Assembly: GCA_947623455.1 (NCBI GenBank)
Contig: OX392530.1
Location: 4,439,501 to 4,503,500, forward strand
Length of the DNA: 64,000 nt
Direction of reading: 5' to 3'
Source of the DNA: Mimachlamys varia
Taxonomy: Eukaryota > Mollusca > Bivalvia > Pectinida > Pectinidae
The position numbers and the translations under genes are program-made. Below the pieces are notes generated by a model. The model did no database searches, was not told where the DNA came from, and worked only from the letters and a program-made list of their open reading frames with translations. Within the stretch, counting starts at the first letter, position 1. Each line of letters starts with the position of its first letter. Shown here piece by piece: positions 300-64,000 of the stretch.

Positions 300-1557
300 G
301 GTCCTTTTACAAAACTAGCCAACATCTGACTATGTCTTTACACATTGACCGGTTTTTCGAAAGATGAAATACTACCATGCTTCTGTATTACAATCTTTCC
401 AAGTACCGGTTAATGAGCAAGATGCTGACCTTCCTTGTCTTTATTGGATACCGAAACAACACAAGGATCCTTATAAGCAACGTTTTATCGCTGGCTCTGC
501 TAATTGCTCGTCCACGCCATTATCAAAACTTCTTACTACAATTCTTAATACCATAAAATCAGGGCTTCAGTCGTATTGTGACACTGTATACTCCAGAAGT
601 GGAATTAATGGGATGTGGATTTTGAAAAACTCGAAAGATCTTTTGATCAATCTTGAACACCCCCTCCTAAAAAATGTCTTTTTCGATCAAAACATTTGAT
701 TTTTCCACCCTGTACACTACCATACCTCATACAAAATTGAAGGAACGCCTCCGATCTCTTGTTATGAGAGCTTTCTTTTCCAAGAAAGGCGGACGACGAT
801 ACAAATATATGGTAGTGGGATATCTTGGAGCATACTTTGTAACAAACACGACAAAAGCTAAGAGGAAATATACTGAAGAAGATATAGTAAGGATGATTGA
901 TTTCCTGGTCGACAACATTTTTGTTGAGTTCGGAGGAAAGATTTTCCAGCAGACTGTTGGCATTCCCATGGGATTAAACTGTGCCCCACTCTTAGCTGAC
1001 TTGTTTTTGTTTTCATACGAGGCTGAATTTGTGGAGGAGCGTATCAGGACAGGTAACAAAAACCTTGCCAAATCTTTTAATTTCACTTTCAGATATATCG
1101 ACGATGTGTTGTCTATAAACAACAAGAAGTTTGCTGACCACGTCGATCGTATATACCCTTCTGAACTTTAAATAAAGGACACAACAGACTCTTCTACCTC
1201 GATCTCTACTTAAACTACGACCAACATGGACAGCTTACTACTAAGCTTTACGTTAAACGTGATGATTTCAATTTTCCGATCGTTAACTTTCCGTTTCTTG
1301 ATAGTAATATCCCTGCTTCTCTAACCAATGGTGTTTACATGTCGCAGTTGATTCGGTATTCCAGGGCTTGCTCTAAATATCAGGATTTTCGTGATCGATG
1401 TCGACTGCTGACAAACAAACTAACAACACAAGGATTCGAGACATGCAGGTTGATCAGAACTATGGGCAAGTTTTATGGTCCCCATCTTTGTCTCATTGAG
1501 AAATATTCTGTATCTTTAAGTGATATGAAGATGGACGTTTTTGAGTATGATCATTAG
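300..1557 (+). pseudogene. Penelope-like element RT, broken copy 1
   Basis: Decayed reverse transcriptase of a Penelope-like element, which would have copied the element's RNA into DNA. The frame from 364 to 699 holds the N-terminal RT block with LYWIPKQHKDPYKQRFIAGS. After a frameshift in an A/T-rich run near 665-690, the frame from 674 to 1171 continues with FDFSTLYTTIPH, then GIPMG (about 957-971) and the catalytic YIDD (1094-1105). Compared with the copy at 5.5 kb, a GAA codon became the stop at 1169-1171, and 13 bp are missing near 1191. The thumb/C-terminal part resumes at 1339-1557 (YSRACSKY, KFYGPHLCLIEKYS) and ends at TAG 1555-1557. No GIY-YIG endonuclease domain follows the RT. The 5' limit is unclear and probably truncated. 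The motifs leave little doubt about the PLE assignment; the clade is open. Confidence 0.88.
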
Positions 1558-16925: not shown

Positions 16926-18869
16926 AGGCATAAGATAGATTAGAATCTCGGAGTCGTTTTATCGATGTTAAAGGTTGTTCACATCAAAGAAGTAAAGATT
17001 TTCTGGCATTAATTATTCTTCTCATATACAATTTTGGAAAAAGAAGCTCATGGCAAAACATAAAGATAATTATATGTCAGTGTGATGGTTTGAGTGCTAT
17101 GATCAGTCAAATATACAAATTTGACAAAATATGTGATTTAAAGTGAATTTTGTAGTTTTGACCAATCGCAGGATTTATAATCTGAAATAAACTACCGTTC
17201 GCAGAAATGACAAAAATATGATTCCCTTTTATTTTATGGAAGTAAAACTTCTCCATCTTACTATTGGAAGAACTTTGGAAAACAATTTTACCCCTACCCC
17301 TTTGTTTCGTAATGAGGACATTTTTTTCCACTTTGCAGATTTAACGCTTAATATAAAAAGTTCTTCTATAAAGCTGTTTTTGTTATTCGCGGATCAAACG
17401 AATATGAGTTTTGCTTTCGTCATAAAAACGTCATAAACAATGAGGGAGGATGTATACTTCATGTTTGTGAAAGACGGATATTTACACATTCGACAGTTAT
17501 TTAGGGAGGCGCTAGAAAACTAATATAATCTCAAAGTTGTTTGGTGAATAGCATACTCAAATAGTCAGCACTCTAAGGATCGCAGTCATGACGCAATATC
17601 CAGAATTGTATTAGATGTCTATCAAAATGTTTAGCTTATTCTCGGGTTAAGCTTGTTTTCCATTTTTAGGAACCATGTCTGCCGAATCATAATATTTGTT
17701 CCTACCTCAGGACGAGAGTCACATTGCTTTTATTTGGGTCATGAATTTGATGTTTTCTGAAGATAGGTATATGGGAAATAATTCGTAGTTTTCTGAAGAC
17801 AAGGATCCGGCAAGAATTTGTTGTTTTCTGAAGACAAGGATAAGGAAAATAATTCCTTGTTTTCTGAAGACAGGGATCCGGCAAGAATTTGTTGTTTTCG
17901 TAAGTACATTGTAGATAAGATGCCATCTGGGAACAGTCTTTATCCGTTGTCATTTGGAGGTGTTCATTGGGTAATATACTTATGTTGTTATTTTGGGATG
18001 CTCGTTTTGTTGAGTGAGGATATCGATTCGTTCTTATTTGAAGTAAGAAGAATGCGAGTTGGTGTTTATTACTATTCTATACAACACAACATAATAATTC
18101 CGAATTGTCAACGACGCTTGATCTTTAGGGATAGGATGCTTTCTGAGATTTGTTCTAACTCGGATAATGACAGGTTGCTGTCAGAATATTGGTATTGTTG
18201 TTAAATAAAAGATTATAAAATTACATAATGTCATTGTGTACATTAAGTTTGTTAACGAGATGTCTACCAAACCAACGCGTCCATAGTATAACTTTCCCGA
18301 TCTTTTTCCTTTGATAATTTGAATATTCATTGATCAGTCGAAACTTAAATTCAAATATCTGTCTGCGCTTGGAATTAACTGCCTTTATATGGCCTCATTA
18401 CGAGCCAGTTGTGGCCGACAAATGCCAAACGTGGCTTTAACAAAAACATTCATCTTTGAAATATTGTAGAAGAAGCAGCAGGTGGATTTGTCACAGGAGA
18501 CAATGCTATCAGGGTTGAAAATGAAAATCGTAAAGCGCCAACTAATTAGGGAATTTACGGAGAGGGATATCTCTGCTTCAGTTGGTACCGCGCGTTTCAC
18601 TTCGATATTGTTTTTGTTCGAGTTGGTAGTGCTTCCTGATGTTAAGAAGATGAAGCAGCAAGCCGAAGGCTACTTTTCTCGTCAAGTATTCATCTCTCGT
18701 ATGCTGCTGTATAATTACAATCCATGGGTAGTTACACCGATTAGGAATAGGATTGGTATCGTATTGGTTCCAAAACAGTTCCCGTTTTACATACTTGTAT
18801 CTAACCAAATCATTTTGTACAAGAGGTCCGGAAACCTAAGTGGTCACCTGAGTTATATCAAAGGAGGGA
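16926..18869. other. No convincing gene; tandem repeat at 17.75 kb
   Basis: Several open frames occur (17702-17953 minus, 17818-18204 plus, 18482-18877 plus, 18385-18600 minus). None carries a recognisable domain, and the first two are driven by the tandem repeat. Confidence 0.45.
17752..17898. repeat. 35-36 bp tandem repeat of alternating units
   Basis: Four units, each beginning TTTTCTGAAGA. They alternate between a type ending GGAAATAATTCSTWG (units 1 and 3) and a type ending GATCCGGCAAGAATTTGTTG (units 2 and 4), implying duplication of a two-unit block. A fifth partial TTTTCG follows. Confidence 0.8.
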
Positions 18870-18991
18870 TGACGTAACACACACGAATATGCTTCACCTT
18901 TTTAAATTTAGTAATAGATCCAGAATGCCAACAAAATCAATTTAACTGCATCATACAGCTGTTTCGTCCTTCTGGGACTCGTCAGTACTAG
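18870..18991 (-). mobile_element. Retrozyme-like fragment, minus strand
   Basis: Reverse complement of the retrozyme body seen at 52.5-53.4 kb: GTAATAGATCCAGAATGCC corresponds to the GGCATACTGTATCTATTAC block, and GATGACGTAACACACACG to its end. It includes a hammerhead-like core at 18948-18991. Confidence 0.7.
18948..18991 (-). ncRNA. Hammerhead ribozyme relic, core intact
   Basis: On the minus strand: box CTGACGA (18985-18979), stem II GTCC-CAGAA-GGAC, box GAAA (18965-18962), short stem III ACAGCTGT, GTA triplet and TGATGC. The partner of TGATGC upstream is CTAGTA instead of GCATCA, so stem I pairs poorly. It is probably inactive or weak. Confidence 0.65.
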
Positions 18992-19343: not shown

Positions 19344-19560
19344 GGTCGGGTGGTGCAGTGGATAGCGCACTTGCTTTTCATCAAGGCGGCCGGTGTTCGA
19401 TTCCCCGACCGGACGCGAAAAGGTATTGGGTCACCTACCCGACCTCATGGGTTTTCTCCGGGTACTTCGGTTTCCTCCCACAATAAAACCCATCGCGTGC
19501 TAACAACCGGGCCAACCATAATTAAATGATTAAAATAAGTTTATATTACATAAATTATGG
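19344..19560 (+). mobile_element. tRNA-derived SINE with intact head
   Basis: The head at 19344-19411 folds as a tRNA, with acceptor arms GGTCGGG and CCCGACC fully complementary. Box A is TGGTGCAGTGG and box B is GTGTTCGATTCC. The putative anticodon loop CTTTTCAT is irregular. The body contains GGTTTTCTCCGGGTACTTCG and GTTTCCTCCCAC, blocks common in invertebrate SINEs. The 3' end AATAAGTTTATATT matches the SINE at 10438. The attached body makes a SINE more likely than a functional tRNA gene. Confidence 0.85.
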
Positions 19561-20224: not shown

Positions 20225-20400
20225 AAATACGTTATAGAATTTAATTTAATGGCTGGGGACCATCGTTTGTCACCTACCATCACTGACGAGTCCCAGAAGG
20301 ACGCAACAGCTGCATGGTGCAGTTAAATTCATTTTTTTTTGGCATAGGGTTTTACTAAATTCTTGAGCTGCAGTATGTGTTACGTCATCTTTAATATACA
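20225..20400 (+). mobile_element. Retrozyme-like fragment
   Basis: Shares ACCATCACTGACGAGTCC, GCAGTTAAATTCATTTTTT, a GGCATAGGGTTTTACTAAAT block and GTGTTACGTCATCTTTA with the repeats at 52.5-53.4 kb. Only the part around the hammerhead is preserved. Confidence 0.7.
20276..20320 (+). ncRNA. Hammerhead ribozyme relic, mutated core
   Basis: Box CTGACGA at 20283-20289, stem II GTCC-CAGAA-GGAC, and stem I ACCATCA against TGGTG (five pairs, one a wobble). The second box reads GCAA where GAAA is required. That substitution in the catalytic core predicts loss of activity. Confidence 0.65.
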
Positions 20401-23383: not shown

Positions 23384-23577
23384 GGCCCCGGTGCCATCAA
23401 CATTCCTTAACTTAAGGAAACTCCTTAATTTAAAAATCTCCATAGGAAAGCATTACAGAATTGAAGGAAAGTTCATTAACTAAGGATTTTCCCCTTAACT
23501 TCTGTAATGCTTTCCTATGGAGATTTTTAGGTTAAGGAGTTTCCTTAAGTTAAGGAACGTTGATGAAACCAGGGCCA
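23384..23577. mobile_element. Foldback MITE (CCTTAACTTAAGG family), copy 1
   Basis: An almost complete palindrome of about 194 bp with arms of about 85 bp. The left arm reads CATCAACATTCCTTAACTTA and CTCCATAGGAAAGCATTACA; the right arm is its reverse complement, ending GGAACGTTGATGAAACCAGG. It has no coding capacity. It lies just downstream of the GPCR exon, inside the first intron. Confidence 0.85.
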
Positions 23578-25280: not shown

Positions 25281-25386
25281 TGTTATACATAATGCAGTTT
25301 CTATGACGACTATAAGGTTTATGTCATCATGTATCTTGCAGGGAAATACCTTTGTAGCGGGTCTAGAATTATTTGATCGTCGACAA

Positions 25387-25456
25387 CCAGATAGCTCAAT
25401 TGATATAGCGTTCATCTAGAATTCGGAAGGTCCCGTGTTCGAATCCCGATCTGGCC
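25387..25456 (+). repeat. tRNA-like sequence, probable SINE head
   Basis: CCAGAT and ATCTGG arms enclose a box A-like TAGCTCAATTGATATAGCG and a box B-like GTGTTCGAATCCC. The T-stem pairs badly, so it is probably a decayed tRNA or SINE head. A related second half, GGTCCCAGTTCGAACCCCGG, lies at about 25778-25800. Confidence 0.45.
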
Positions 25457-25544
25457 ATTTCACTTTCCCTTTCTTCTATTTGGTGCTTTTGCCCAACCCC
25501 TATTTCATACATTCAGCATATTCTTGTCAACCGATTCCTGAACC

Positions 25545-25740
25545 CGAAATTAAATTAATTTAAGCACCAGACTCTTCCGCTTCTACATTAATTTAGACGA
25601 GTTCGAGTCCCACCTGGAGTAATTGACGAGTTCTAGAAGGACGAAACAGCTGTATGATGCATCTTAGTTCGTTTTGCGGCGTACTGCATATATTACTAAG
25701 GCGCAGCAGGTGTGTGTGTTACGTCATCTTCTTATGTCGT
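25545..25740 (+). mobile_element. Retrozyme-like fragment
   Basis: Begins CTTCCGCTTCTACATTAATT (body consensus CTTCTACTTCTACATTAGTT), includes a hammerhead-like core at 25617-25660, and ends GCAGCAGGTGTGTGTGTTAC then GTCATCTT, matching the downstream body. Confidence 0.65.
25617..25660 (+). ncRNA. Hammerhead ribozyme relic
   Basis: Box reads TTGACGA (C to T in the first core base). Stem II is GTTC-TAGAA-GGAC with one wobble, followed by GAAA, ACAGCTGT, GTA and TGATGC. No GCATCA partner precedes the core, so stem I is lost. Predicted inactive. Confidence 0.6.
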
Positions 25741-35927: not shown

Positions 35928-36519
35928 TAACATATAACATATATCAATATATTACCTATAAGTGCAAGATTGTTACGCATTTGGTAACAAAATGCTACAT
36001 GTGGTGTTAAGCAACACAAATCATATATGTGTACGTGATAAGCATTTTGTTAGAAACTAGTTATCGACAAAATTGTTACAAGGCAATTACACATTAATTG
36101 ATGATAACTGAATTTAGTGGTTCATTGCATTTTTGATAATTTACCTATATTATATATGATCAACTGAGGCCGGAAAAACATTTCCATGCTAGGTCAATCT
36201 TCATTCTCTCACAACGTTGAAACGTTAATACTATCACTAACATCATTGGGATATTCAAGTCGTGATACACAATAAAAGGATATTGGTATTACCATCAAAT
36301 AATTTCTATGACAACAAACGTATGTAGGCGGTATTATTGCTTACATGATATAAAGTTTATTGCACGCTTGACAAAAAGACCATTATAGATATACATACAA
36401 CGTATCGTGTATGTTGATTAATATATCATTTATTATTATGGCAAAATCATATGTTGCCAGTACAGACGACGTTTACTCGAGCACAAGCACCTGTTTGTTC
36501 GATCTCATTTTAGTTATTT
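35928..36519. other. No gene recognised
   Basis: AT-rich; nothing supportable. Confidence 0.5.
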
Positions 36520-36660
36520 TGCCGGATCATTCATAGCCACAGTTATCCCAATTCATAAGTAGCATGATTCATATTTTAACATTTTCGTAGTACAAGATTT
36601 GAAATTATACAGTACTAATGTATTTCGTTCCGAATTCATAAATTAAATCATTCGTGTTAT
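36520..36660 (+). mobile_element. Retrozyme body fragment without ribozyme
   Basis: CATAGCCACAGTTATCCCAA, ACATTTTCGTAGTACAAGAT and TTTGAAATTATACAGTACTA match the inter-ribozyme body at 53040-53165. The hammerhead itself is absent. Confidence 0.65.
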
Positions 36661-37095: not shown

Positions 37096-38469
37096 CTAGG
37101 TTGTCGGAGTCATATGTACTATACAGGTATAGTACCAATTATATATTAAGCCTGGTTGAATTTTTCAAACATAGGTCTAAAGATATTAGCCGGAGTATCT
37201 GCAATACATGTGCAAACATCGGTCTCATTAGTTAAGCCGTTTATCCTGATCCTGCAATACATACTATTATATAAATAGCTGTCTATTTACATAAACCTAA
37301 AGACTTCATTAGATAAGACGGAAGTCATGCAATGCATATACAAATAAAGAGATAATTAGATAAACCGGAAGTCCTGTTGTACGTATATGTAAAGATTTTA
37401 GTTTAGTAACACACGCTTACTGGACGACTCCAGTTAGCATCTGATCGTACTAATACGTCAAGGCAATTACACCACCATTGCAGAATGCAGCTCGACAAAA
37501 TCCGTTCCTTCTGGGAGGGGGTCAGGAACAAGGCTCATCGAGTCCGCATTTCCATTTATTGTAACTTTCAGTGCGTTATTAGTGCTAGCCGATTCTCCGG
37601 TTATTTATATTGGGCTTTGTACCGTGTCATCGATTTTATGGGATGGTTTTAAGTAGACAACTGTCACATGTGCTATTGGCATTAATAAGTATAGGAAAGC
37701 CTTTAGCAATAACATTAATTAGCAATGTGGTGCGCACATTTGGTAGCGCTGGGAAAACACACAATATCCAGCCTCGAATACATCTTAAATGTCAGGTGTT
37801 GCAATTTGAGCGTTTGATATTGAACAGGCTTAATACACTCGGGCAGATAATGCTGTCTGGTGAAAGTAAATCTTCAGGATGACGTCACCAAGGACTGTCA
37901 AACTACGTAAATAACTATTTCTATTTGAGAATGGTTCTTAGAACTAGATATCAATTAACATAAGAATGACATATATATACTGTAAAAATGGATTTATCTC
38001 TTGGACATTACTGTTTGGGGTGCAAATTACGTCATTATGGCCAACCAGAATACTTTTTGGTATAATAAAAATTTTGAAGATTTTTTTGATTTTTTTTTTT
38101 AAGTATAAGTACCTTCGTATATCTATTAAAAGAACACAGGATCGATAGCCAAGGGGCATCTTCACTTATAATGTGGACATCAAACGCGTCTCAAAATGTC
38201 AAGGCCGAATGGCCCGTTGTCAAGCTATAATTGAATGACAGTTGCGACGAACACGTATATTTTCAAAGGCACTCGATCCGGATTGACGATATAAGATCCC
38301 TGACTATGAACATCTACAACTATTTATTGTGTAAGGGATTGCACACCTTTGGGCAAATCTTGTAGCACTCGTCAAACACAAAATTATGCAGTTTATATTA
38401 AATTTGAATAATGGTTCAAATACTAATTTCAACTTTAAATTTGTTCTGCTTTTTTATCATCTTTTGTTT
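37096..38469. other. No gene recognised; weak tandem repetition
   Basis: Degenerate repeats of ATTAGATAARMCGGAAGTC occur at about 37228-37375. Frame 37610-37882 (90 codons) has no signature. Confidence 0.4.
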
Positions 38470-38985
38470 CGTTGCGAAGCTTAATAACGATTATGTTTGT
38501 TGTCATGCTTAATAAAGAATATGTTCGTTGCCGGGCTTAGTGACGAATATGTTCGTTGCCAGGATTAATAAAGAATATGCACATTGCCGGGTTTCATCAA
38601 AAATATCTTCGTTGCCGAGCTTAATAAAGAATATGTTCGTTGCCATGCTTGAAAAAGAATATGTTTGTTGCCGGGCTTAATAAAGAATATGTTCGTTGCC
38701 GGGCTTAACAAAGAATGTGATCTTTGCTGGGTTTTTGAAAGAACAGGTATGCTCGTTATTGAGCTTAATAAAGAACTGTTCGTTGTGGGGCATCATAAAG
38801 AATATGTTCATCGATGGACTTATTGAAGAATAGGTTCGTTGCCTGACTTGCTAAAGACCATGTTCGTTGCCGGGCTTTATAATAATTATGTTCCTTGCGT
38901 GTCTAAATAAAAACAATAAGTTCGTTGCCGGGATTAACAAAGAATATGTTCGTTTTCATGCTTAATAAAGACTATGTGTGTTGCC
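38470..38985. repeat. 28 bp minisatellite, about 18 copies
   Basis: Unit AATAAAGAATATGTTCGTTG plus CCGGGCTT, with substitutions and small indels throughout. The divergence between units suggests an old array. Confidence 0.88.
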
Positions 38986-44067: not shown

Positions 44068-44702
44068 TAGAAAATACCGAAGGGTTAACAAAATCATAAT
44101 CTGAACTCAAAACCATTCAACTTACTGCAAAATATGATCAAAAGAAATATTTAAATGATGACCTTGTAAAAGTACAAGATAATAAGACCAGGTGTTCCAG
44201 AGTAGTAAGCGTCTTCTGCTTCATCGACAGCACCCGCCATGTAAAGCTTGGTCACATTCAAGTAAACATCAAGCCCTCGAAATGAGAACCAAGTCATTGT
44301 CAATCACAACAAGTATTCATACTAAGGAGCTTACACAAAAACGTTCATCTTCATATCACACAAAGTTACAGAATAACGTTCAATGAGACAAAGATGGCGA
44401 CCATAAAACTTGTCTATATTTCTGATCAACCTGCCTCTCTCGAATCCCTGTGTTGTTAGTTTGTTTGTCAGCAGTCTACATCGACCACGAAAATCCCGAT
44501 ATTTAGAGCAAGCCCTAGAATAACAAATCAGCTGCGACATGTAAACATCATAAGTTGTAGAAGCAGGGATGTTACTATCAAGAAAAGGAAAGTTCACGAG
44601 CGGAAACTTTAAATCATCTCGTTTGTCGTATAGCTTAGTAGTAAGCTGTCCATGTTGGTCGTAGTTTAAGTAGAGATCGAGGTAAGCAGCTGATGTAGAA
44701 GA
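44068..44702 (-). pseudogene. Penelope-like element RT C-terminus and tail, minus strand
   Basis: 5'-truncated at STSAAYLDL (about 44702). The minus-strand frame ending at 44331 gives AAYLDLYLNYDQHGQLTTKL, YDKRDDLKFPLVNFPFLDSN, YSRACSKYRDFRGRC and KFYGRHLCLIERYSVTL, well conserved to the end of the RT. The tail continues to about 44068 with AAAATACCGAAGGGTTAAC. The open frame extends upstream to 44885 only because non-PLE flanking DNA happens to be open. The catalytic YIDD region is absent. Confidence 0.88.
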
Positions 44703-44944
44703 AGAAAAAAAGTCATAAAATACCAATACATTTGGGTCACGGCATACGTGGGGAAGCCGCCTGGTACTCGCCTGGGTTTTGTTTTTCTTCTGAAAGACTG
44801 GATACCTTCCATCACTTAAAACTGGAAAACAAACCAAACCAAACCATGATATATTACAAGGTAAACTTGCCAGGATGGTGACCACATAACTAGTAAACAG
44901 TTTACATCAACCTGCATAATTATGTCAGTGAGTCGTCCTTCTTC
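44703..44944. other. Flank of PLE, no gene recognised
   Basis: Short spacer between the truncated PLE and the retrozyme-like fragment. It contains AAACCAAACCAAACC at about 44830. Confidence 0.4.
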
Positions 44945-45120
44945 GAAATGTTGTCGGCATTACTTTAGAAATTTTGGATTCCCACCTTTTAGCCTCTAGC
45001 ATCACTGACGAGGGGAGGCCTAGAAAGCCAAAATAGCTTTATAATGCAGTTTAATTGTTTTTCGGGATATTGTATCTATTAATAGATTTTTAAGGTGTAG
45101 CATGAGTGTGTGTGTTACGT
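44945..45120 (+). mobile_element. Retrozyme-like fragment
   Basis: TTTAGAAATTTTGGATTCCC, CCTTTTAGCCTCTAGCATCA, CTGACGAG, TGCAGTTTAATTG and GCATGAGTGTGTGTGTTACG match the 53.2 kb copy. The right end is fused to a PLE tail at GTTAAC. Confidence 0.7.
44999..45047 (+). ncRNA. Hammerhead ribozyme relic, degenerate
   Basis: Stem I strand GCATCA and box CTGACGA are intact (44999-45011). The stem II hairpin and GAAA box have decayed (CCAAAATAGC where GGACGAAACAGC is expected), and the distal stem I reads TAATGC. Predicted inactive. Confidence 0.5.
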
Positions 45121-45210
45121 TAACAAAACCATAATCTGAATTCCAAATTCTTGCAAAAGTACACCAAACGAAGACCAGGTGTTCCGAAAGAGTAAGCGTC
45201 GGGGTAAGAG
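45115..45210 (-). mobile_element. PLE tail fragment, minus strand
   Basis: GTTAACAAAACCATAATCTG, then a deletion, then CTTGCAAAAGTACACC and AAGACCAGGTGTTCCGAAAG with AGTAAGCGTC. It begins inside the retrozyme end. Confidence 0.7.
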
Positions 45211-47949: not shown

Positions 47950-48232
47950 CAAATTGTACAGGTACAGATAAAGTGTGTACGACGTACAGGTACACATACA
48001 GTACACTCCACGCACAGGTACACATACAGTGTACACCACGTACAGGTATACATACAGTGTTCTCCACGTACAGGTACACATACAGTGTACAACACGTACA
48101 GGTACACATACAGTACACTCCACGTACAGGTACATGTACCAATACAGTGTACACCGCATACAGCTACACATACAGTGTACTCGCATACAGCTTAACATAC
48201 AGTGTACTCCACGTACAGGTACATGCACGTCT
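47950..48232. repeat. 28 bp minisatellite array A
   Basis: About ten copies of CACGTACAGGTACACATACA plus GTGTACAC, variously changed (GTACTC in place of GTACAC; one copy extended by GTACATGTACCAATACA). The unit lacks stop codons in most frames and 28 is not a multiple of 3, so long open frames arise on both strands without being genes. Confidence 0.92.
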
Positions 48233-48236
48233 GTTT

Positions 48237-48324
48237 TAAAATAGCCGCGCGTCGCGAGATCACGCGAGAATTTCTTTCTAATCCAGCTATTTTTGATCAC
48301 GTGACGTGAGGCGGCGGCCATTTT
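48237..48324. promoter_or_regulatory. CpG-rich inverted-repeat island between arrays
   Basis: A CpG-rich block bounded by AAAATAGCCGCGCG (48237-48250) and GCGGCGGCCATTTT (48311-48324), which are imperfect inverted repeats. It contains CACGTG at 48298-48303 overlapping a TGACGTG. On the minus strand it gives AAAATGGCCGCCGCC, resembling a YY1-type promoter/start motif. It may be a small MITE or a promoter; I cannot decide which. Confidence 0.4.
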
Positions 48325-48491
48325 CAACAGATTTCAGGAAACTGGTAATATTTTAGAAATGGATGACGACAGTTAGTTTACGACCTCCTGTGACTTAATT
48401 AAATGTGTAGGTTAGTAGAAAAAATCTGTCCTTTCCGTTGATACTTAATTTACATGTGATCGGAAATGTTTCATATTATAAAACACGGCTT

Positions 48492-48610
48492 AAAAGGCGA
48501 CCCGTGCACGGGTCGGTAAAATTTCCACTTTTTTACAAAGGAGGAATTCTGACTCTCGCACCCGCCTGTCGTCCAAATATTTAGCGGGTCAGAGAGTCAG
48601 AACCCTTCAT
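48492..48610 (-). repeat. Dispersed short repeat, copy 2 (pair with 3793-3911)
   Basis: Contains the perfect palindrome GACCCGTGCACGGGTC at 48499-48514. It also contains an inverted pair, CTGACTCTCGCACCCGC and GCGGGTCAGAGAGTCAG, at about 48551-48602. The reverse complement matches 3793-3911. It lies between the two 28 bp arrays. Confidence 0.65.
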
Positions 48611-48614
48611 ACTA

Positions 48615-49035
48615 ATATACAATGTACATCACGTACAGGTATACATACAGTGTGCACCAGGTTCAGGTACACATAAAGTGTACTCCACGTACAGGTACAC
48701 ATACAGTGTACACCAGGTACAGGTACACATACAGTGTACTCCACGTACAAGTATACATACAGTGCACACCACGTACAGGTACACATACATTGTACACCGC
48801 GTACAGGTACACATACAGTGTACACCACGTACAGGTACACATACAGTGTACTCCACGTACAGGTACACATACAGTGTACACCACGTACAGGTACACATAC
48901 AGTGTACACCACGTACAGGTACACATACAGTGTACTCCACGTACATGTACACATACAGTGTACTCCACGTACAGCTACACAAACAGTGTACTCCACGTAC
49001 AGGTACACATACAGTATACTCCACGTGCAGGTCAT
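48615..49035. repeat. 28 bp minisatellite array B
   Basis: About 15 copies of the same 28 bp unit as array A, in the same orientation, with exact 28 bp spacing through the middle (for example 48801 and 48829). The two arrays are separated by about 380 bp of unrelated sequence. Confidence 0.95.
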
Positions 49036-50145: not shown

Positions 50146-50240
50146 TAGCTGTCCGATACCCTGTTAAGTATGGGTAGTATCACCTGCTTGAAGAGAAACA
50201 AATGAGATAGTCAAGCTCAAACAATTGTACGTTTAAGAGT

Positions 50241-51401
50241 ATGGCATCGAGTGTACAACAAGTGGAAGTTAATCGTGCAGGGCCTTCCCTGATCAACCAT
50301 GACAGTTCAGTCCTTGATCTCGTCTTCGCCCTCGACTGTACTGCCAGTATGGGTAGTTACATTGGGACGGCCCGCAGGAATATACGGACCATTGTTGAGA
50401 GGATCGTATCGTCTGAGAAGAGTGATGTACGCCTGGCCCTGGTGGAGTACAGAGACCATCCACCACAGGATGACACGTTTGTGACTCGCCCTCACGACTT
50501 CAGCACCTCCGTGTCCACCATGAGAAAATGGCTGGAGGGGTGTAATGCACAGGGAGGGGGAGATATCCCCGAGGCTGTAACTGACGCTCTGAATGAAGTA
50601 CTCAAACTTTCGTGGAGGGAGAATTCTACAAAGATATGTGTGTTGATATCGGATGCTCCGCCACACGGTCTGCACTCTGTAGGGGACACGTTCCCAAACG
50701 GATGTCCAGCAGGGCTCGACCCGATGTTCATTGTCCGACAAATGGCCGAAAAGGGAATTACGTTATACTGTGTTGGCTGTGAACCTGCAATCGTTCCTTA
50801 TAAGGAATTCTTTACGGCCATTGCATTTCTGACCGGTGGACAATACGTACCCCTTCTTGGAGCCAAAGCACTTACTCAGATAATCATAGGCGGCGCCCAG
50901 GAAGAAATTTCTCTGGATAGATGGATGGCCGAGGTTGATCGAGAAGTCCAAGAAGAAATGAAAAATGGGCGTGAAGTGAACGAGGAAAACATTTCAAAGA
51001 AGATTACAGCGACGTTAAAATCGAAAGGAGCAAAGAGTAAAACGTTGATGCGAAATAGCTTCGCTCTAAAGGCAGCGTCTGCGTTCTCCATGGTATTATC
51101 CAAATGTAAAAGTATGATGCAACTGAAAGGAAAATTTAAGCTTGCGGAGTTACCTTCATCCGTTGGTTGTAAAGCGAGGAAAATGTGTAAGGGGAAAAAG
51201 GGTAAAACGGCGACGAAGGGTATCAAACGTAAAAAGTGTGCCCCGGTAAAAAGAGGAAGAACACGAAAAACATCAAAGGTTACAGTAGCTGATGAAGAGG
51301 AGGAGGAGAGCGAGGAATTTAACGCCGTGGAGAGCACTATATCTCAATCACAGGTTTTAAGAATGGTGAGAAAATCGAAGGCGAGGATCATGAAAAAGTG
51401 A
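50241..51401 (+). CDS. VWA domain protein, vwkA-like, basic C-terminal tail
   Basis: A 386-residue protein in one uninterrupted frame with ATG at 50241 (GAGTATGGCATC). A VWA fold covers about residues 24-215. Its metal-ion-dependent adhesion site has DCTASM (32-37, the DxSxS position with Thr in place of the first Ser) and GGGDIPEAV (105-113), and the strand CVLISDAPPHG (133-143) follows. This pattern is typical of the VWA domain of alpha-kinase vwkA-type proteins and their kinase-less animal relatives. No alpha-kinase domain follows. A helical, charged segment (about 220-285) leads to a Lys/Arg-rich tail (about 308-347, KGKKGKTATKG, IKRKK, RGRTRKTSK), an acidic run DEEEEESEE and a basic end. 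The tail suggests nuclear targeting or binding to nucleic acid or chromatin, which is inference. Lack of introns could mean a retrocopy or a naturally single-exon gene. There is no signal peptide. Overall family assignment is firm; role unknown. Confidence 0.9.
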   Translation: MASSVQQVEVNRAGPSLINHDSSVLDLVFALDCTASMGSYIGTARRNIRTIVERIVSSEKSDVRLALVEYRDHPPQDDTFVTRPHDFSTSVSTMRKWLEGCNAQGGGDIPEAVTDALNEVLKLSWRENSTKICVLISDAPPHGLHSVGDTFPNGCPAGLDPMFIVRQMAEKGITLYCVGCEPAIVPYKEFFTAIAFLTGGQYVPLLGAKALTQIIIGGAQEEISLDRWMAEVDREVQEEMKNGREVNEENISKKITATLKSKGAKSKTLMRNSFALKAASAFSMVLSKCKSMMQLKGKFKLAELPSSVGCKARKMCKGKKGKTATKGIKRKKCAPVKRGRTRKTSKVTVADEEEEESEEFNAVESTISQSQVLRMVRKSKARIMKK

Positions 51402-52469: not shown

Positions 52470-52549
52470 GTTATTAAAAGTGTTTTACGCACTTGACCCT
52501 TCTACTTCTACATTAGTTTAGAAATTTAGGATTCCTATCTTTTGGCTTA

Positions 52550-52593
52550 GCATCACTGAAGAGTCCTACGAGGACGAAACAGCTGTATGATGC
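52550..52593 (+). ncRNA. Type I hammerhead ribozyme, copy 1 (intact)
   Basis: A self-cleaving RNA. Stem I GCATCA (52550-52555) pairs with TGATGC (52588-52593). Conserved box CTGAAGA is at 52556-52562. Stem II is GTCC-TACGA-GGAC (52563-52575). Box GAAA is at 52576-52579. A minimal stem III comes from ACAGCTGT, and the GTA triplet puts cleavage after 52587. All core positions are present. Very short stem III is typical of PLE and metazoan retrozyme hammerheads, which are thought to work best as dimers. Confidence 0.88.
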
Positions 52594-52861
52594 AGTTTAA
52601 TTCATTTTTTCGGCATACTGTATATATTACTAAATTTAAGAGGTGCAGCATATGTGTGCGTTACATGATCTTTATGATAGGGGTGGCAGACTCTGCTGGT
52701 GGATTTTTTAGTCCCCTAGGTTTGCTGGAGCCTCCATAGCCACAGTTAATCTCATTTGAGTAGTGGCACGGTACTTAATATACACATTTTCGTAGTAAAC
52801 GCACCTGACCATTCTGCTTCTACATTAGTTCAGAAATTTTGGATTCCTACCTTTTGGCCCT

Positions 52862-52906
52862 ACCATCACTAAAGAGTCCTAAGGGGACGAAACAGCTGTA
52901 TGATGC
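52862..52906 (+). ncRNA. Hammerhead ribozyme, copy 2 (core mutated)
   Basis: Stem II GTCC-TAAGG-GGAC, GAAA and GTA are intact. The first box reads CTAAAGA (the conserved G is A), and stem I has ACCATCA against TGATGC with one mismatch. The core change predicts loss of cleavage, so only the outer heads may be active. Confidence 0.8.
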
Positions 52907-53240
52907 AGTTTAATTCATTTTTTCGGCATACTGTATCTATTACTAATTTAAGAGGTGCAGCATATGTGTGTGTAACATCATCTTTATGATAGAGGGTGGC
53001 AGACTCTGCTAGTGGATTTTTTAGTCCCCGAGGTTTGCTGGAGCCTCCATATCCACAGTTAATCTCATTTGAGTAGTGGCACGGTACTTAATATACACAT
53101 TTTCGTAGTACACTATTTGAAATTATACAGAACTAGTTTAATCTTACTTCTAAATTAATAAATTAAAGGAGTTTTACGTACCTGACCTGTCTGCTTCTAC
53201 ATTAGTTTAGAAATTTTGTATTCCTACCTTTTGGCCCCTA

Positions 53241-53287
53241 GCATCACTGAAGAGTCCTAGGAGGACGAAACAGCTGTATGATTGCAG
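53241..53287 (+). ncRNA. Type I hammerhead ribozyme, copy 3
   Basis: GCATCA (53241-53246), CTGAAGA (53247-53253), stem II GTCC-TAGGA-GGAC, GAAA (53267-53270), ACAGCTGT and cleavage after 53278. The distal stem I strand is TGATTGC with one inserted T, giving a bulge. The core is complete, so it is probably still active. Confidence 0.85.
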
Positions 53288-53370
53288 TTTAATTCATTTT
53301 TTTCGGCATACCGCGTCTATTACTAAATTTAAGAGGTGCAGCATATGTGTGTGTTACGTCAACCTTATCA

Positions 53371-53711: not shown

Positions 53712-54172
53712 GTAATGTTCTTTGGCTCTAGATCTATCGAAAAACAAAGGGGTCCATGGGCCCGTATACTCCTCACCTTTGGCTCTAAATCTATAAAAAC
53801 CAAAGGGGTCTATATATGGGCCCGTAGACGCCTGGCTTTTGGCTCTATATCTATAACAAATCAAACGGGGTATGTGGGCCAGTAGACGCCTCGCCTATGA
53901 CTATAGATATATAAAAACCAAACGGGGCCTATGGGTGCGTAGACGCCTGGCCTTTGGCTCTATATCTATAACAAATCAAACGGAGTATGTGGGCCAGTAG
54001 ACGCCTCGCCTATGGCTATAGATATATAAAAACCAAACGGGGCCTATGGGTGCTTAGACCCTCGCCTTTTGCTCTAGATCTATAAAAACCAAACGCGGTT
54101 CTGTGGACCAGCAGACCCCTCGCCTTTAGCTCTAGATCTATAATAATCAAACGGGGTCTGTGGGTATGTAGC
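53712..54172. repeat. 57-60 bp minisatellite, 8 units, dimeric order
   Basis: Units begin GCTCTAGATCTATAAAAACC and end near GTAGACGCCTCGCCTTTG. Units 3+4 and 5+6 are nearly identical as pairs (about 115 bp), showing that the array last expanded by a two-unit block. Confidence 0.9.
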
Positions 54173-57855: not shown

Positions 57856-59272
57856 TGGGTTATTTAAGTCCATATACACTATCATTTGTAATCACTCAAG
57901 AAGTTCTGTTTCTTACACTTATTCTTAAGAAACATTGTATTAACGGTGAAATTGTCCAAGCGTCTGACTCTGACTGAGGACCCTTTCATTCGACAGAACC
58001 AAAAATTTATAAAAGCACGACAGAGTGTGTGTAATCATTTCCGCCTCTTCACAACTATATAGTTCCGTCTTTATTCTTCGTAATTCTGTGTATGGATACC
58101 TCACCACGTTATATACTATTAATTCAGACGGTTACACTTTGGTATTTAGAACGCTGAATTCTTCAGTATATCAAGATACATGTACGCATTACCTTGTCGA
58201 TTGAAAATCCGACTATGATTGTAATAATTTTAGGAATTCAAAATTATCTTGAACTATAAATTGTCTGCAGCCATATCCTAGTTTCATATGTTCCAATTTC
58301 GGACAACCAATACATTGCGCCCATTACACCTGTCCTGGATTTACCATTGAGTTTGGGAAACGGGACAAAATTTTAAAAGTATACAAGAAGCGGCACACTG
58401 TGTCTTTGACGGCAGGGAAGATGGTTGTCCCGTCATAGGAATATATGTCAATTAAAAAATCAGGTCGCGATCGCTGATTGGCTATGCCATTGCATCATAC
58501 CGTGTGATCACTGAATGGGGAGCAGGACTACACCACACATTTCCGAATCCACTAGACTGCAAAGGGAGGTAACTACATGTAGGTACTGACACTAAATATA
58601 CCGCACTTTCTGAAGAATTCATATAAAAACATACATGAAACTGATCAAATATAACGGTATTTTATTAGTCAGTAAAGCTAATTCATTGTATAGTGTGATT
58701 TAAAAAGCATATTTTATTTTTTACTTCAGTATAACATTCAATAACAAAATTTATTGAAATAGTTTAAAGAAAAAAAAGTTTTCAAGACGTTTTGTTTATT
58801 TTTGTTGGTTTATTTTTCATTGGATGTATTGCTATGTTGTAATAAAATAAGGCATTCCTTAAATCTCGATCGACACGAATGCTCCCGTTAATATCCAAAG
58901 ATTTTTTTTTTCATTTCCACTGATGTTAGACAAGGATCTCCAATATGTTAGCACATTGACTATGCGTTTGTCGATACAATGGTAAGAATATGCCTGTATT
59001 CACACTATTATATGCTACATGTATTTGTTCAAGCATGGTTCGAAATCTAATTCCTGTTTCGCTCCAATCATTATTGGTGCAAGATGTAGTTCCGTCCCAG
59101 CCAGTCGTCAATGACATAGTGTACCGTTTATTGTACTTTTCAAACATTGCCCCGTTACCGTACCTCAACCCAATGGAAAATTCGGACCAGGTGTATAATT
59201 TATGTTCATAATGCTTTACCATATATGGGAAACAAGAGATGCACTAAATATCTTCCATCGTCGTTTACACCA
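57856..59272. other. No gene recognised
   Basis: AT-rich with T/A homopolymers around 58700-58920. The overlapping frames at 58926-59222 have no signature. Confidence 0.45.
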
Positions 59273-59903: not shown

Positions 59904-62679
59904 CTTTCTATAGTATGCTCAATATTTGGATCACACGACGTTTGACGAGGAACTGTGGACATGTCTACGTTAACTATGTACAGAGAGTTTATCGATACGG
60001 GACGGATTATTAAAAAATCATTATTTGTTCCATAAATTATTACCCTTTCTTTAGTTTGGGACTTTGCTGATGTTTCTTTGCTAAATGGTCGTCTTAGGTT
60101 ATGTTAAGAAGACCAAGGACAAAACAAAATTTATCACAGAGATAAAATCGTAAGCATGATCGAATTCAGGTTCGAAATATTTTTGCTATAATGGCCATAA
60201 TCCCCCGCAGATCAGTAGAGACAAACGGTGCCCGTCTATGTCAATGAATATTGGACTTCATTTATAATCTTAATCCACACCATAACCAGCCGAAGGTTCT
60301 TGCCAACTTTGAAAACCGTAATGGTGAAATTTCCACAATCTACACCCAATGGGTTGATTATCTATCTCATTCCAACTACCGAAATAGATTCATAAACCGT
60401 GAATATGCGTTCAGAGTGACTATACTATCCATGTGTTTCCTCTGTGGTTTTAAGACGAAAACGAATCTATCTTAAAAAAAATTCACAGAAATAAAATATT
60501 CCAATATTTCAAACTTGTACAGTCTATAAAAAAGGGGGTTTTCTTCATTGCATAACGTTGCCTTTTCCACATTGGGCATTTCATAATTCGAGATGTTACA
60601 TTATTGGTGAGCCATTTTGAAATGGGAGGAACTATATCATACAATAAATATGTAATCAACTATTTTGATTATGCAATGAACATGTATATAACATTGATGT
60701 ATATCTCATGTACAGCATGCATGTCTGTAGCTGTTATCAGTCAATGTTATTGTTATAACTGTTATCAATTCCGTTATTGGACTCCTGGGATCTATTGAAT
60801 AACACTAAAAATAATGATAATTGTAATAAAATCAAACTGGAATATTACATCCGAGACACGTTAACATTGTTTTATTCTATGAAATTCGGGACTGTACAGG
60901 AATTTTAAAAATGCCTTAATTTTCATTCATTCTAACGCCTTATCTCTAGTCAAAATATTTCTGAAATGCCTTATTTTAATGCTACCATTTCAATTTTAGA
61001 AACAAATATGGCAGGGCAGCCACTGTTTTGAACAATATTTAGACAATAAAACTCATACAAATAAAAGTCCAATGCTTCTTTTAAGTTACGATTAATTGAT
61101 TTTTAGGACGATTATAAATGTCTGTTTTTCAACTGGTATTCCTTTTCAAACACGTGAAAATATATTAGCGAATCCATTTATTGTTCCTCTTGGAGAGTTT
61201 AATTGCTTTGGGTCTCTTGCGACCGTTTATAAAAGCGCTTTTGGGTTTTAATAAACTCTTTACATTAACCTTAGTGCACCGACTCATTTGTCATCAGATT
61301 TATCAATCCTATCTCTAACGGTGCTATTTCTATCTTTCAAACAATACATGGAATCGCCTTACAGAGACGGCATTCTAACTCGGAGTTGATACCACATCAT
61401 CATCATGAAATCCTAAACGACAATTCCTCCTTATCCCAGATCATCTTCTTTTACTCCCTAATCGAGTGAGGCTGGTTCTCTCTGTATTTCTGTTAAACAG
61501 ACGGCTATTTTCTCAATTTTTAAATATACAAAAAAAAAGAGCTAACCATTCGACCAATCAAGAAATTGCAGCACTGTTGTAGGACACCTAATCTGTTGAT
61601 GACTATCACTTACTGATAGTCAAAAATAACTGAGAGGTATGGATCCTGCACACTTGGGTTTTTCTTCGGATATTAATATTATCAATGAATCATTCAGAGT
61701 ATTCTGACACAGTTTTTTCCCCATATCACCCATCAATTATCCTAATTGCATTATCAAATGTCAAGCTTTTTAGACTTTTCAAGACAATGTAGCCATTTTT
61801 CAATTTGCGTGGATGCGAGAAAAAGCTATCTGATAGGAACATGTTCGTGTGGGGGAAAAAGCAAAGTCGTCGAAGAAGAGTCAAACAGAACCTACATTTG
61901 AACACTTAAAAAACCGTTAAAACTTTTTGCGTAGTGTCGTACGCGTATCGTGTTTTTTTCTTGAAAATAAAACATGCACGCACGTTTTGAATAACTACAT
62001 GTAAAAGTAGCCATTATTAATTTGTTTAAGCAATACCTGCATGTAAAATGTAAAAAAAGGAATTATTTTGTTAAACACAAAATCGTAAGCATTTGGCAAA
62101 ACCACGACATAAGCACAACTTTTGACAGTAAATTACTCTGTGTTAGCACAATGGCTATGAATTTCATCAATAAATTGATGAACATACACTGGTGTAAAGC
62201 GATTTAAAAGCGATCAAATAAAGCAGCTCGTTTGTTGTTATTACCGACAGTTCATATAATCCTCACTTTAACTTGCTATAGAGTATTTCCAATTAAATGT
62301 TATTGGTATGCAAGCCATCAGCGCCGTACCGTTTGATGTGCTGTAATCCTAACTCATGAAGAGTTGGTCACCGCGACATCACAGAACGCAGGCTTACATC
62401 TCATAACCCAACTTGTGTCGGTACAGCATGATAAAGACTCGGGCCAATGCGCATAATCAATTATCTACAATAAATAAAAGGGTTTAAGCATTTAATTTAG
62501 TTGATCTTCCTGTGATGTTGGATTATAAATATAAAAAACAAACATATTTTAATTATAAATATTTAATATCAACAAATGAAGACACATCAAAGAAACAAAC
62601 ATTGTATGCTTAATGTAATGCCTTGTAGTGATAATTAAACATCAAATAATGAAAAGCATAACCTCAAAACTCTTAAGTG
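59904..62679. other. No gene recognised
   Basis: A 2.8 kb AT-rich interval. Frames at 60251-60475, 60604-60798 and 62022-62207 have no domain, and no repeat family shared with the rest of the window was seen. Confidence 0.45.
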
Positions 62680-64000
62680 TGTCCCGTAGTGCCGTGTATC
62701 CCGTAGTGTTGTGTATCCAATATTGTTGTGTATCCCGTAGTGTTGTGTATCCCGCAGTGTTGTGTATTCCGTAGTGTTGTATATCCCGTAGTGTTGTGTG
62801 TCCCGTAGTGTTGTGTATCCCGTTGTGTTGTGTATCCCGTAGTGTTGTATATCCCGTAGTATTGTGTTTCCCGTGGTGTTGTGTCTTCCATAGTGTTGTG
62901 TATCCCGTAGTGTTGTGTATCCCGTAGTGTTGTGTATCCCGTGGTGTTGTGTATTCCATAGTGTTGTGTATCCCGCAGTGTTGTGTATCCCGTAGTGTTG
63001 TGTATCCCGTGTTGTTGTGTATTCCATAGTGTTGTGTATTCCATTGTGTTGTGTATCCCGTAGTGCTGTGTATACCGTAGTGTTGTGTATCCCATAGTGT
63101 TGTGTATCCCGTAGTGTTGTGTATCCCGTGGTGTTGTGTCTTCCATAGTGTTGTGTATCCCGTAGTGTTGTGTATCCCGTAGTGTTGTGTATCCCGTGGT
63201 GTTGTGTATTCCATAGTGTTGTGTATTCCATTGTGTTGTGTATCCCGTAGTGCTGTGTATACCGTAGTGTTGTGTATCCCATAGTGTTGTGTATCACATA
63301 GTGTTGTGTATCCCGTGGTGTTGTGTATTCCATAGTGTTGTGTATTCCATTGTGTTGTGTATCCCGTAGTGCTGTGTATACCGTAGTGTTGTGTATCCCA
63401 TAGTGTTGTGTATCCCGTAGTGTTGTGTATCCCGTAGTGTTGTGTATCCCGTGGTGTTGTGTATTCCATAGTGTTGTGTATTCCATTGTGTTGTGTATCC
63501 CGTAGTGTTGTGTATCCCGTGGTGTTGTGTCTTCCATAGTGTTGTGTATCCCGTAGTGTTGTGTATCCCGTAGTGTTGTGTATCCCGTGGTGTTGTGTAT
63601 TCCATAGTGTTGTGTATTCCATTGTGTTGTGTATCCCGTAGTGCTGTGTATACCGTAGTGTTGTGTATCCCATAGTGTTGTGTATCACATAGTGTTGTGT
63701 ATCCCGTGGTGTTGTGTATTCCATAGTATTGTGTATTCCATAGTGTTGTGTATCCCATAGTGTTGTGTATCCCGTGGTGTTGTGTATTCCATAATGTTGT
63801 GTATCCCGTAGTGTTGTGTATTCCGTAGTGTTGTGTATCCCGTGGTGTTGTGTATCCCGTAGTGCTGTGTATTCCGTAGTGTTGTGTATCCCGTAGTGTT
63901 GTGTATCCAGTAGTGTTGTATATCCCGTAGTGTTGTGTATCCCGTAGTGTTGTGTATTCCGTAGTGTTGTATATCCCGTGGTGTTGTGTATCCCGTAGTG
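62680..64000. repeat. 17 bp minisatellite running to window edge
   Basis: About 77 copies of TCCCGTAGTGTTGTGTA with point variants (ATTCCATAG, CCGTGG, GTGCTG, ATACCG). Variant units recur at multiples of 17: CTTCCATAG at about 62885, 63140 and 63531 (255 and 391 bp apart), and TACCG at about 63073, 63260, 63379 and 63651 (187, 119 and 272 bp). That shows higher-order block duplication. The long minus-strand frames (up to 360 codons, repeating a 17-residue peptide) follow from the stop-free unit. Confidence 0.95.

Follow-up and report, generated by a model that had tools for sequence, protein, structure and literature searches.

The array of hammerhead ribozymes at positions 52473..53368 of a 64,000-nt stretch of Mimachlamys varia DNA (contig OX392530.1; the window) raises the question of what kind of element it is and how such an element comes to be copied more than once, head-to-tail, at one place. 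The array is best explained as a long-resident copy of a non-LTR retrozyme of M. varia that is non-autonomous and probably non-coding; blastn and alignment to the unit delimit it on the plus strand as a run of some 2.5 laps, the unit being ~378 nt long (locus label L001). It contains three direct repeats, at 52473-52675, 52785-52987 and 53162-53368, each with a hammerhead, and the hammerhead-to-hammerhead distances are 313 and 378 nt. In these respects the original prediction was confirmed by the sequence and by matches to Rfam Hammerhead_1.

Hammerhead 1 (52550..52593, plus strand; cmscan RF00163 32.7 bits, E = 5.2e-6) is of type I and complete in core and stems, with a predicted cut after A52587. 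Its elements follow in the order GCATCA, CTGAAGA, GTCCT-ACG-AGGAC, GAAA, ACAGCTGTA and TGATGC, with GTA at 52585-52587, and every element claimed for this copy is found in the sequence. Hammerhead 2 (52863..52906, plus strand; 24.5 bits, E = 0.0026) is probably inactive, as its core, correctly reported to carry a G to A change, reads CTAAAGA and its outer stem-I pair is a C-C mismatch. Hammerhead 3 (53243..53282, plus strand; 23.9 bits, E = 0.0043) had been called healthy; an intact core with a one-base bulge, the extra T of TGATTGC in stem I, is present, but the description is too simple because the bulge allele was found at only three places genome-wide. The stems are GCAUCA/UGAUGC (I), GUCC/GGAC (II) and a two-pair stem III capped by the palindromic loop AGCU, which is the form given for invertebrates in PMC7229834. 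Stem I has six pairs with at most one bulge, and two further pairs were seen by eye when loop 1-loop 2 contacts were considered; the mussel ribozymes, as presented in PMC7229834, are without most of the loop-contact nucleotides.

The scores above were obtained by cmscan on a 1.1-kb stretch. The proposed Rfam search matched Hammerhead_1 in all three copies, although every score lies under the RF00163 gathering cut-off of 34 bits. Across the whole window cmscan gave no hammerhead at the gathering score, and with matches listed by E-value copy 2 was absent and copy 3 had E = 0.25. A motif pattern had four matches in the window against a mean of 0.14 in shuffled sequence, with none of 100 shuffles reaching four, so the motif is present more often than by chance. 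The four are copies 1 and 3, a relative at 18954-18985 (minus strand) and 58610-58659, the last of which is probably a chance match since the stems are absent by eye. The conserved core and three stems of the type I hammerhead are seen both in the RF00163 matches and in 1217 exact intact copies in the genome.

Comparison of the copies indicates that the unit is ~378 nt and that the 313-nt spacing is the same unit shortened by a deletion of ~65 nt. One full unit, measured from the predicted cut site of copy 2 to that of copy 3, is 52901..53278 (plus strand) and serves as the reference for unit positions. The interval from copy 2 to copy 3 includes a stretch (53114..53175, plus strand, approximate limits) that has no counterpart between copies 1 and 2 and is also present in a spacer-only fragment without ribozyme at 36518..36647 (plus strand), which matches 53034-53167 and covers the stretch. 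The claim of a separate 313-nt monomer is therefore ruled out. Nor is the array a neat trimer, as had been supposed: its 5' end is internal to the unit and its 3' end, at 53345..53368 (plus strand) and ~86 nt past the cut site, is the fixed end point of the family, which in other copies reads GTTACGTSATCTTT. With the spacer-only fragment, blastn found five further pieces in the window. The other four are a 5'-truncated solo relative with a CTGACGA hammerhead core (18867..18986, minus strand), a solo relative with GCAA replacing GAAA (20266..20393, plus strand), a diverged solo relative (25547..25730, plus strand) and a solo relative with a decayed hammerhead (44958..45124, plus strand).

Pairwise divergence among the laps of the window insertion is 6.4, 8.5 and 10.4 percent, close to their divergence from other insertions, and the three comparisons gave 0, 0 and 1 shared rare variants. 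It therefore looks old and decayed. No ORF of at least 150 aa overlaps 52473-53368, a cut-off that exceeds what the unit could hold, and the G+C content of the window as a whole (not of the unit) is 36 percent. A 58/115-nt tandem repeat lies directly 3' of the insertion, at 53720-54165. tRNA-derived SINEs with a hammerhead exist, such as Sm-alpha of Schistosoma, and are recognised by a tRNA-like pol III promoter within the element; cmscan found no tRNA family match at 52473-53368, which speaks against a tRNA-derived SINE.

In the 975,302,275-base assembly (71 contigs) the family is dispersed and abundant. An exact search for one 38-nt hammerhead gave 1217 hits, 594 on one strand and 623 on the other, compared with none on either strand for the reversed control. 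A 17-base piece of the unit had 5696 hits (0 and 1 in the control), and a 161-base query gave 1813 first-look candidates, 40 of them being scored. A hammerhead scan of viral contigs gave 0 matches. The 78 loci examined consist of 28 of the 40 best-scoring places and 50 of the 1217 exact hammerheads, the latter taken in order of position and nearly all from chromosome 1. They yielded 94 matches, of which 85 were kept after dropping seven duplicate loci (L014, L015, L020, L026, L038, L054 and L075) and one match at a locus edge. The pattern sample (n=58) requires an intact hammerhead, and shorter copies are therefore missed; the best-scoring sample has n=27.

The type I hammerhead, whose stem III has two pairs and a palindromic loop, the apparently non-coding unit of ~378 nt and the dispersed high copy number in a mollusc make a metazoan retrozyme the best reading of the element, as originally proposed. 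The unit also falls within the tandem units of ~170-400 nt, from dimers upward, that are expected of such elements, with 11 of the 58 pattern-sampled matches longer than 385 nt, and hence over one lap; the longest is 876 nt, and some approach three laps. The element belongs to the known metazoan non-LTR retrozymes, as these are described in PMC7229834, and the scallop is a new host.

The ends of the insertions are strongly asymmetric. The 3' end falls at unit positions 80-93 in 44/58 pattern-sampled and 24/27 best-scoring matches, and at positions 68-93 in 50/58 of the former, where the shared tail GTTACGTSATCTTT gives way to unrelated flank. Fourteen of the 58 end outside 80-93 and eight outside 68-93, six of these at 31-43 (L043, L056, L066, L068, L073 and L076); L043 looks like an internal deletion. 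In the best-scoring set the exceptions are L019, L027 and a fragment of L018. The 5' ends of the pattern sample, by contrast with this single end point, are spread round the unit and occupy 13 of 14 position bins. Variable 5' ends combined with one constant 3' end are characteristic of truncated reverse transcription. The remaining 47 of the 58 matches are no longer than 385 nt, and most of the sampled copies are solo. No long target-site duplication was found among 26 insertions at score 10 (0/26) or 72 at score 15, where there were four candidates (4/72), two of them within tandem repeats; short flank matches at score 8 showed a weak excess (9/67 against 11/335). In metazoan non-LTR retrozymes such duplications, where they occur, are expected to exceed 4 bp. 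Some individual ends deserve mention. At five independent loci the 5' end is at position 134-135, beside a predicted hairpin, and this is perhaps a pause site. The tail is doubled in L064, and at L025 2166 the final 23 nt of the tail stand alone, joined to unrelated DNA, being either a very short copy or a different element with the same tail.

Copying of cut, linear units should make 5' ends accumulate at the first base past the cut. Exact matches, counted upstream at 3-nt intervals from unit positions 4, 1, -3 and -6, numbered 5696, 3616, 3025 and 2375. Of the three steps, the one across the cut retains the largest share of matches, 84 percent (63 and 79 percent for its neighbours), which suggests that the template was usually continuous over the ribozyme site, either as a closed circle or as an uncut multimer. 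The 36.5 percent drop from position 4 to position 1 was considered as a stop beside the cut and rejected, since the ribozyme is present upstream in 16 of the 20 first-listed sites. It is absent in the other four of the 20, among which L087 and L091 have 5' ends near position 4. A G at position 3 was found in 11 of the same 20 sites, with stem I kept by a G-U pair, and the drop is largely due to this variant. The bulge of copy 3 was also considered as its cause and dismissed, as it occurs at three sites only. Starts exactly at or near the cut were seen in L018 (position 1) and L056 (position 3) and, by eye, are no more frequent than by chance.

Agreement between laps was assessed in 44 lap pairs from 30 insertions, with substitutions only and with a rare variant defined as one present in at most 10 percent of other insertions. 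The input was limited to matches ending at 80-93 (68 elements, seven duplicate loci removed), and the pairs are non-independent, as seven insertions supply three pairs each. Both laps carried the same variant in 52 of 457 cases, whereas pairing with other insertions, leaving out comparisons more than 16 percent divergent, gave 6.1 shared variants on average and never more than 17.3 over 2000 draws. Mean divergence was 0.053 between laps of one insertion and 0.072 between insertions, and was lower within the insertion in 33/44 pairs; for 10 lap pairs (8 insertions) no other insertion was equally close. At least one shared rare variant was found in 16 of the 30 multi-lap insertions and none in 14. 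The shared variants would fit a single template per insertion.

Taken together, the fixed 3' end, the free 5' ends, the runs of up to three laps, the agreement between laps and the lack of a stop at the cut point to reverse transcription from a fixed site round a ligated circle. Copying from ligated RNA circles of ~378 nt with a fixed-site start is, in our judgement, probably the best explanation of both the window insertion and the family. In such a cycle, a multi-lap genomic copy would be transcribed and the intact hammerheads, to judge from their cores, would cut the RNA into ~378-nt units, which a host RNA ligase could close to circles by analogy with what PMC7229834 describes for mussel, coral and axolotl. 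A reverse transcriptase from some other element would then start at one internal site, always ~86 nt downstream of the cut, and run round from less than one to about three times, halting anywhere, and the resulting cDNA would be inserted in the genome; we observe the end patterns of this step and infer its template and enzyme. With somewhat more reserve, we consider it rather likely that hundreds or thousands of insertions are each a multi-lap reading of one RNA circle from a fixed start ~86 nt past the ribozyme scar.

The template for the same element could instead be linear multimers that are transcribed from multi-lap genomic copies and stay uncut, with circles as by-products, and we regard this as unlikely while giving it some weight. 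Uncut multimers would likewise account for insertions of several laps that continue past the cut. Many hammerheads have a decayed core that should prevent cutting, and the 14 multi-lap insertions with no shared rare variant agree with such templates. Multimers alone, however, leave the single fixed 3' end inside the unit unexplained, and the private variants common to laps as well, unless each source array was homogeneous. Two readings that dispense with reverse transcription altogether fare worse. That the laps arose by rolling-circle DNA transposition or from extrachromosomal DNA circles would suit the homogeneity of laps inside an insertion and the absence of a clear target-site duplication, yet it is highly improbable, as the variable 5' ends and one fixed 3' end point to truncated reverse transcription and an intact ribozyme would have no use. 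That the repeats are an ordinary satellite, expanded by unequal crossing-over and with the ribozyme merely carried by descent, would account for the head-to-tail order of the copies but is barely credible. Of the 58 pattern-sampled matches, 47 do not exceed 385 nt, and they are scattered over chromosome 1, share their 3' end and have different flanks. We rejected the satellite reading on the ground that solo copies with this shared end make up most of the sample.

It is also very unlikely that the repeats are terminal-repeat pieces of an autonomous element with minimal hammerheads of the Penelope type. A reverse transcriptase family that its motifs suggest to be Penelope-like is very abundant in the M. 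varia genome (17475 first-look candidates, 150 of them scored), with fragments in the window at 671-1168 (plus strand) and 44331-44906 (minus strand), and Pfam gave it only a sub-threshold RVT_1 match. Two of the four sampled copies, L080 and L081, have inverted repeats on either side; in L081 the inverted terminal repeats are 838-1081 and 2693-2449 (87.5 percent). According to PMC7761336, Penelope pseudo-LTRs do carry minimal type I hammerheads. None of the four sampled copies, however, has a hammerhead of its own by the pattern, their match to the unit is at most 15-17 nt, bar one separate retrozyme copy, and stem III in the scallop unit has two pairs and a tetraloop, as in invertebrate retrozymes. 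A Penelope-like partner sharing the retrozyme tail was likewise sought, and the tail was not found in the four sampled copies. A retrozyme copy at L080 622-925 lies close to the reverse transcriptase element, possibly by chance.

Copying from RNA circles thus remains our preferred reading, and its relation to known systems can be considered. The closest is the retrozyme of Mytilus galloprovincialis, which as presented by Cervera and de la Pena (2020, PMC7229834) also has a type I hammerhead with a short stem III, in a unit of 350-390 bp compared with ~378 here; tandem arrangement, thousands of copies and a mollusc host are further likenesses to the retrozymes of that paper, and low G+C may be another. 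Compared with those retrozymes as described there, the scallop family is mostly solo and 5'-truncated with one fixed 3' end, and both the sharing of variants among its laps and its continuation across the cut were measured in the present analysis. The satellites of newts and salamanders in the same paper have similar tandem units of ~330-350 bp with a type I hammerhead, whereas the scallop stem III has two pairs and its copies are mainly dispersed. Penelope-like elements with minimal hammerheads, as outlined in PMC7761336, share the type I hammerhead within a retroelement, but the scallop unit seems to have no protein-coding part and the sampled Penelope-like family is without its tail. Plant LTR retrozymes, as characterised in PMC4918200, are kindred as ribozyme-flanked non-coding retroelements with circular RNA and differ in their type III hammerheads and LTRs.

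The kind of element was therefore already known, and what is new here is the fixed 3' end with free 5' ends, the variants shared between laps and the reading through the cut. PMC7229834 demonstrated circles in tissue and put them forward as templates for tandem cDNA; its passages on this proposal give no end or lap statistics. One 3' end, free 5' ends and agreeing laps provide genomic evidence for circle copying, a still hypothetical retrozyme step, and the M. varia family may offer unusually direct evidence of this kind on an open question of retrozyme replication. The fixed 3' end also defines the start site that the reverse transcriptase must recognise, and the host, a common edible scallop, is suited to testing both circle copying and this start site.

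Several other features were seen in the window. Tandem arrays of 28 nt are present at 38468-38985 and 47956-49032, and 78 copies of a 17-nt satellite, GTGTATCCCGTAGTGTT, occupy 62677-64000 and continue beyond the window end. tRNA-like sequences at 19344-19411 (a sub-threshold tRNA match, 24.1 bits) and ~25385-25460 (by eye) are probably SINE heads. A hairpin region at 23419-23541, with a sub-threshold MIR1509 match on the plus strand and a different microRNA family on the minus strand, is probably a palindromic transposon. Upstream of the retrozyme insertion, 50211-51401 (plus strand) holds an uninterrupted 396-aa reading frame with a VWA domain, closest to Pecten maximus (73 percent).
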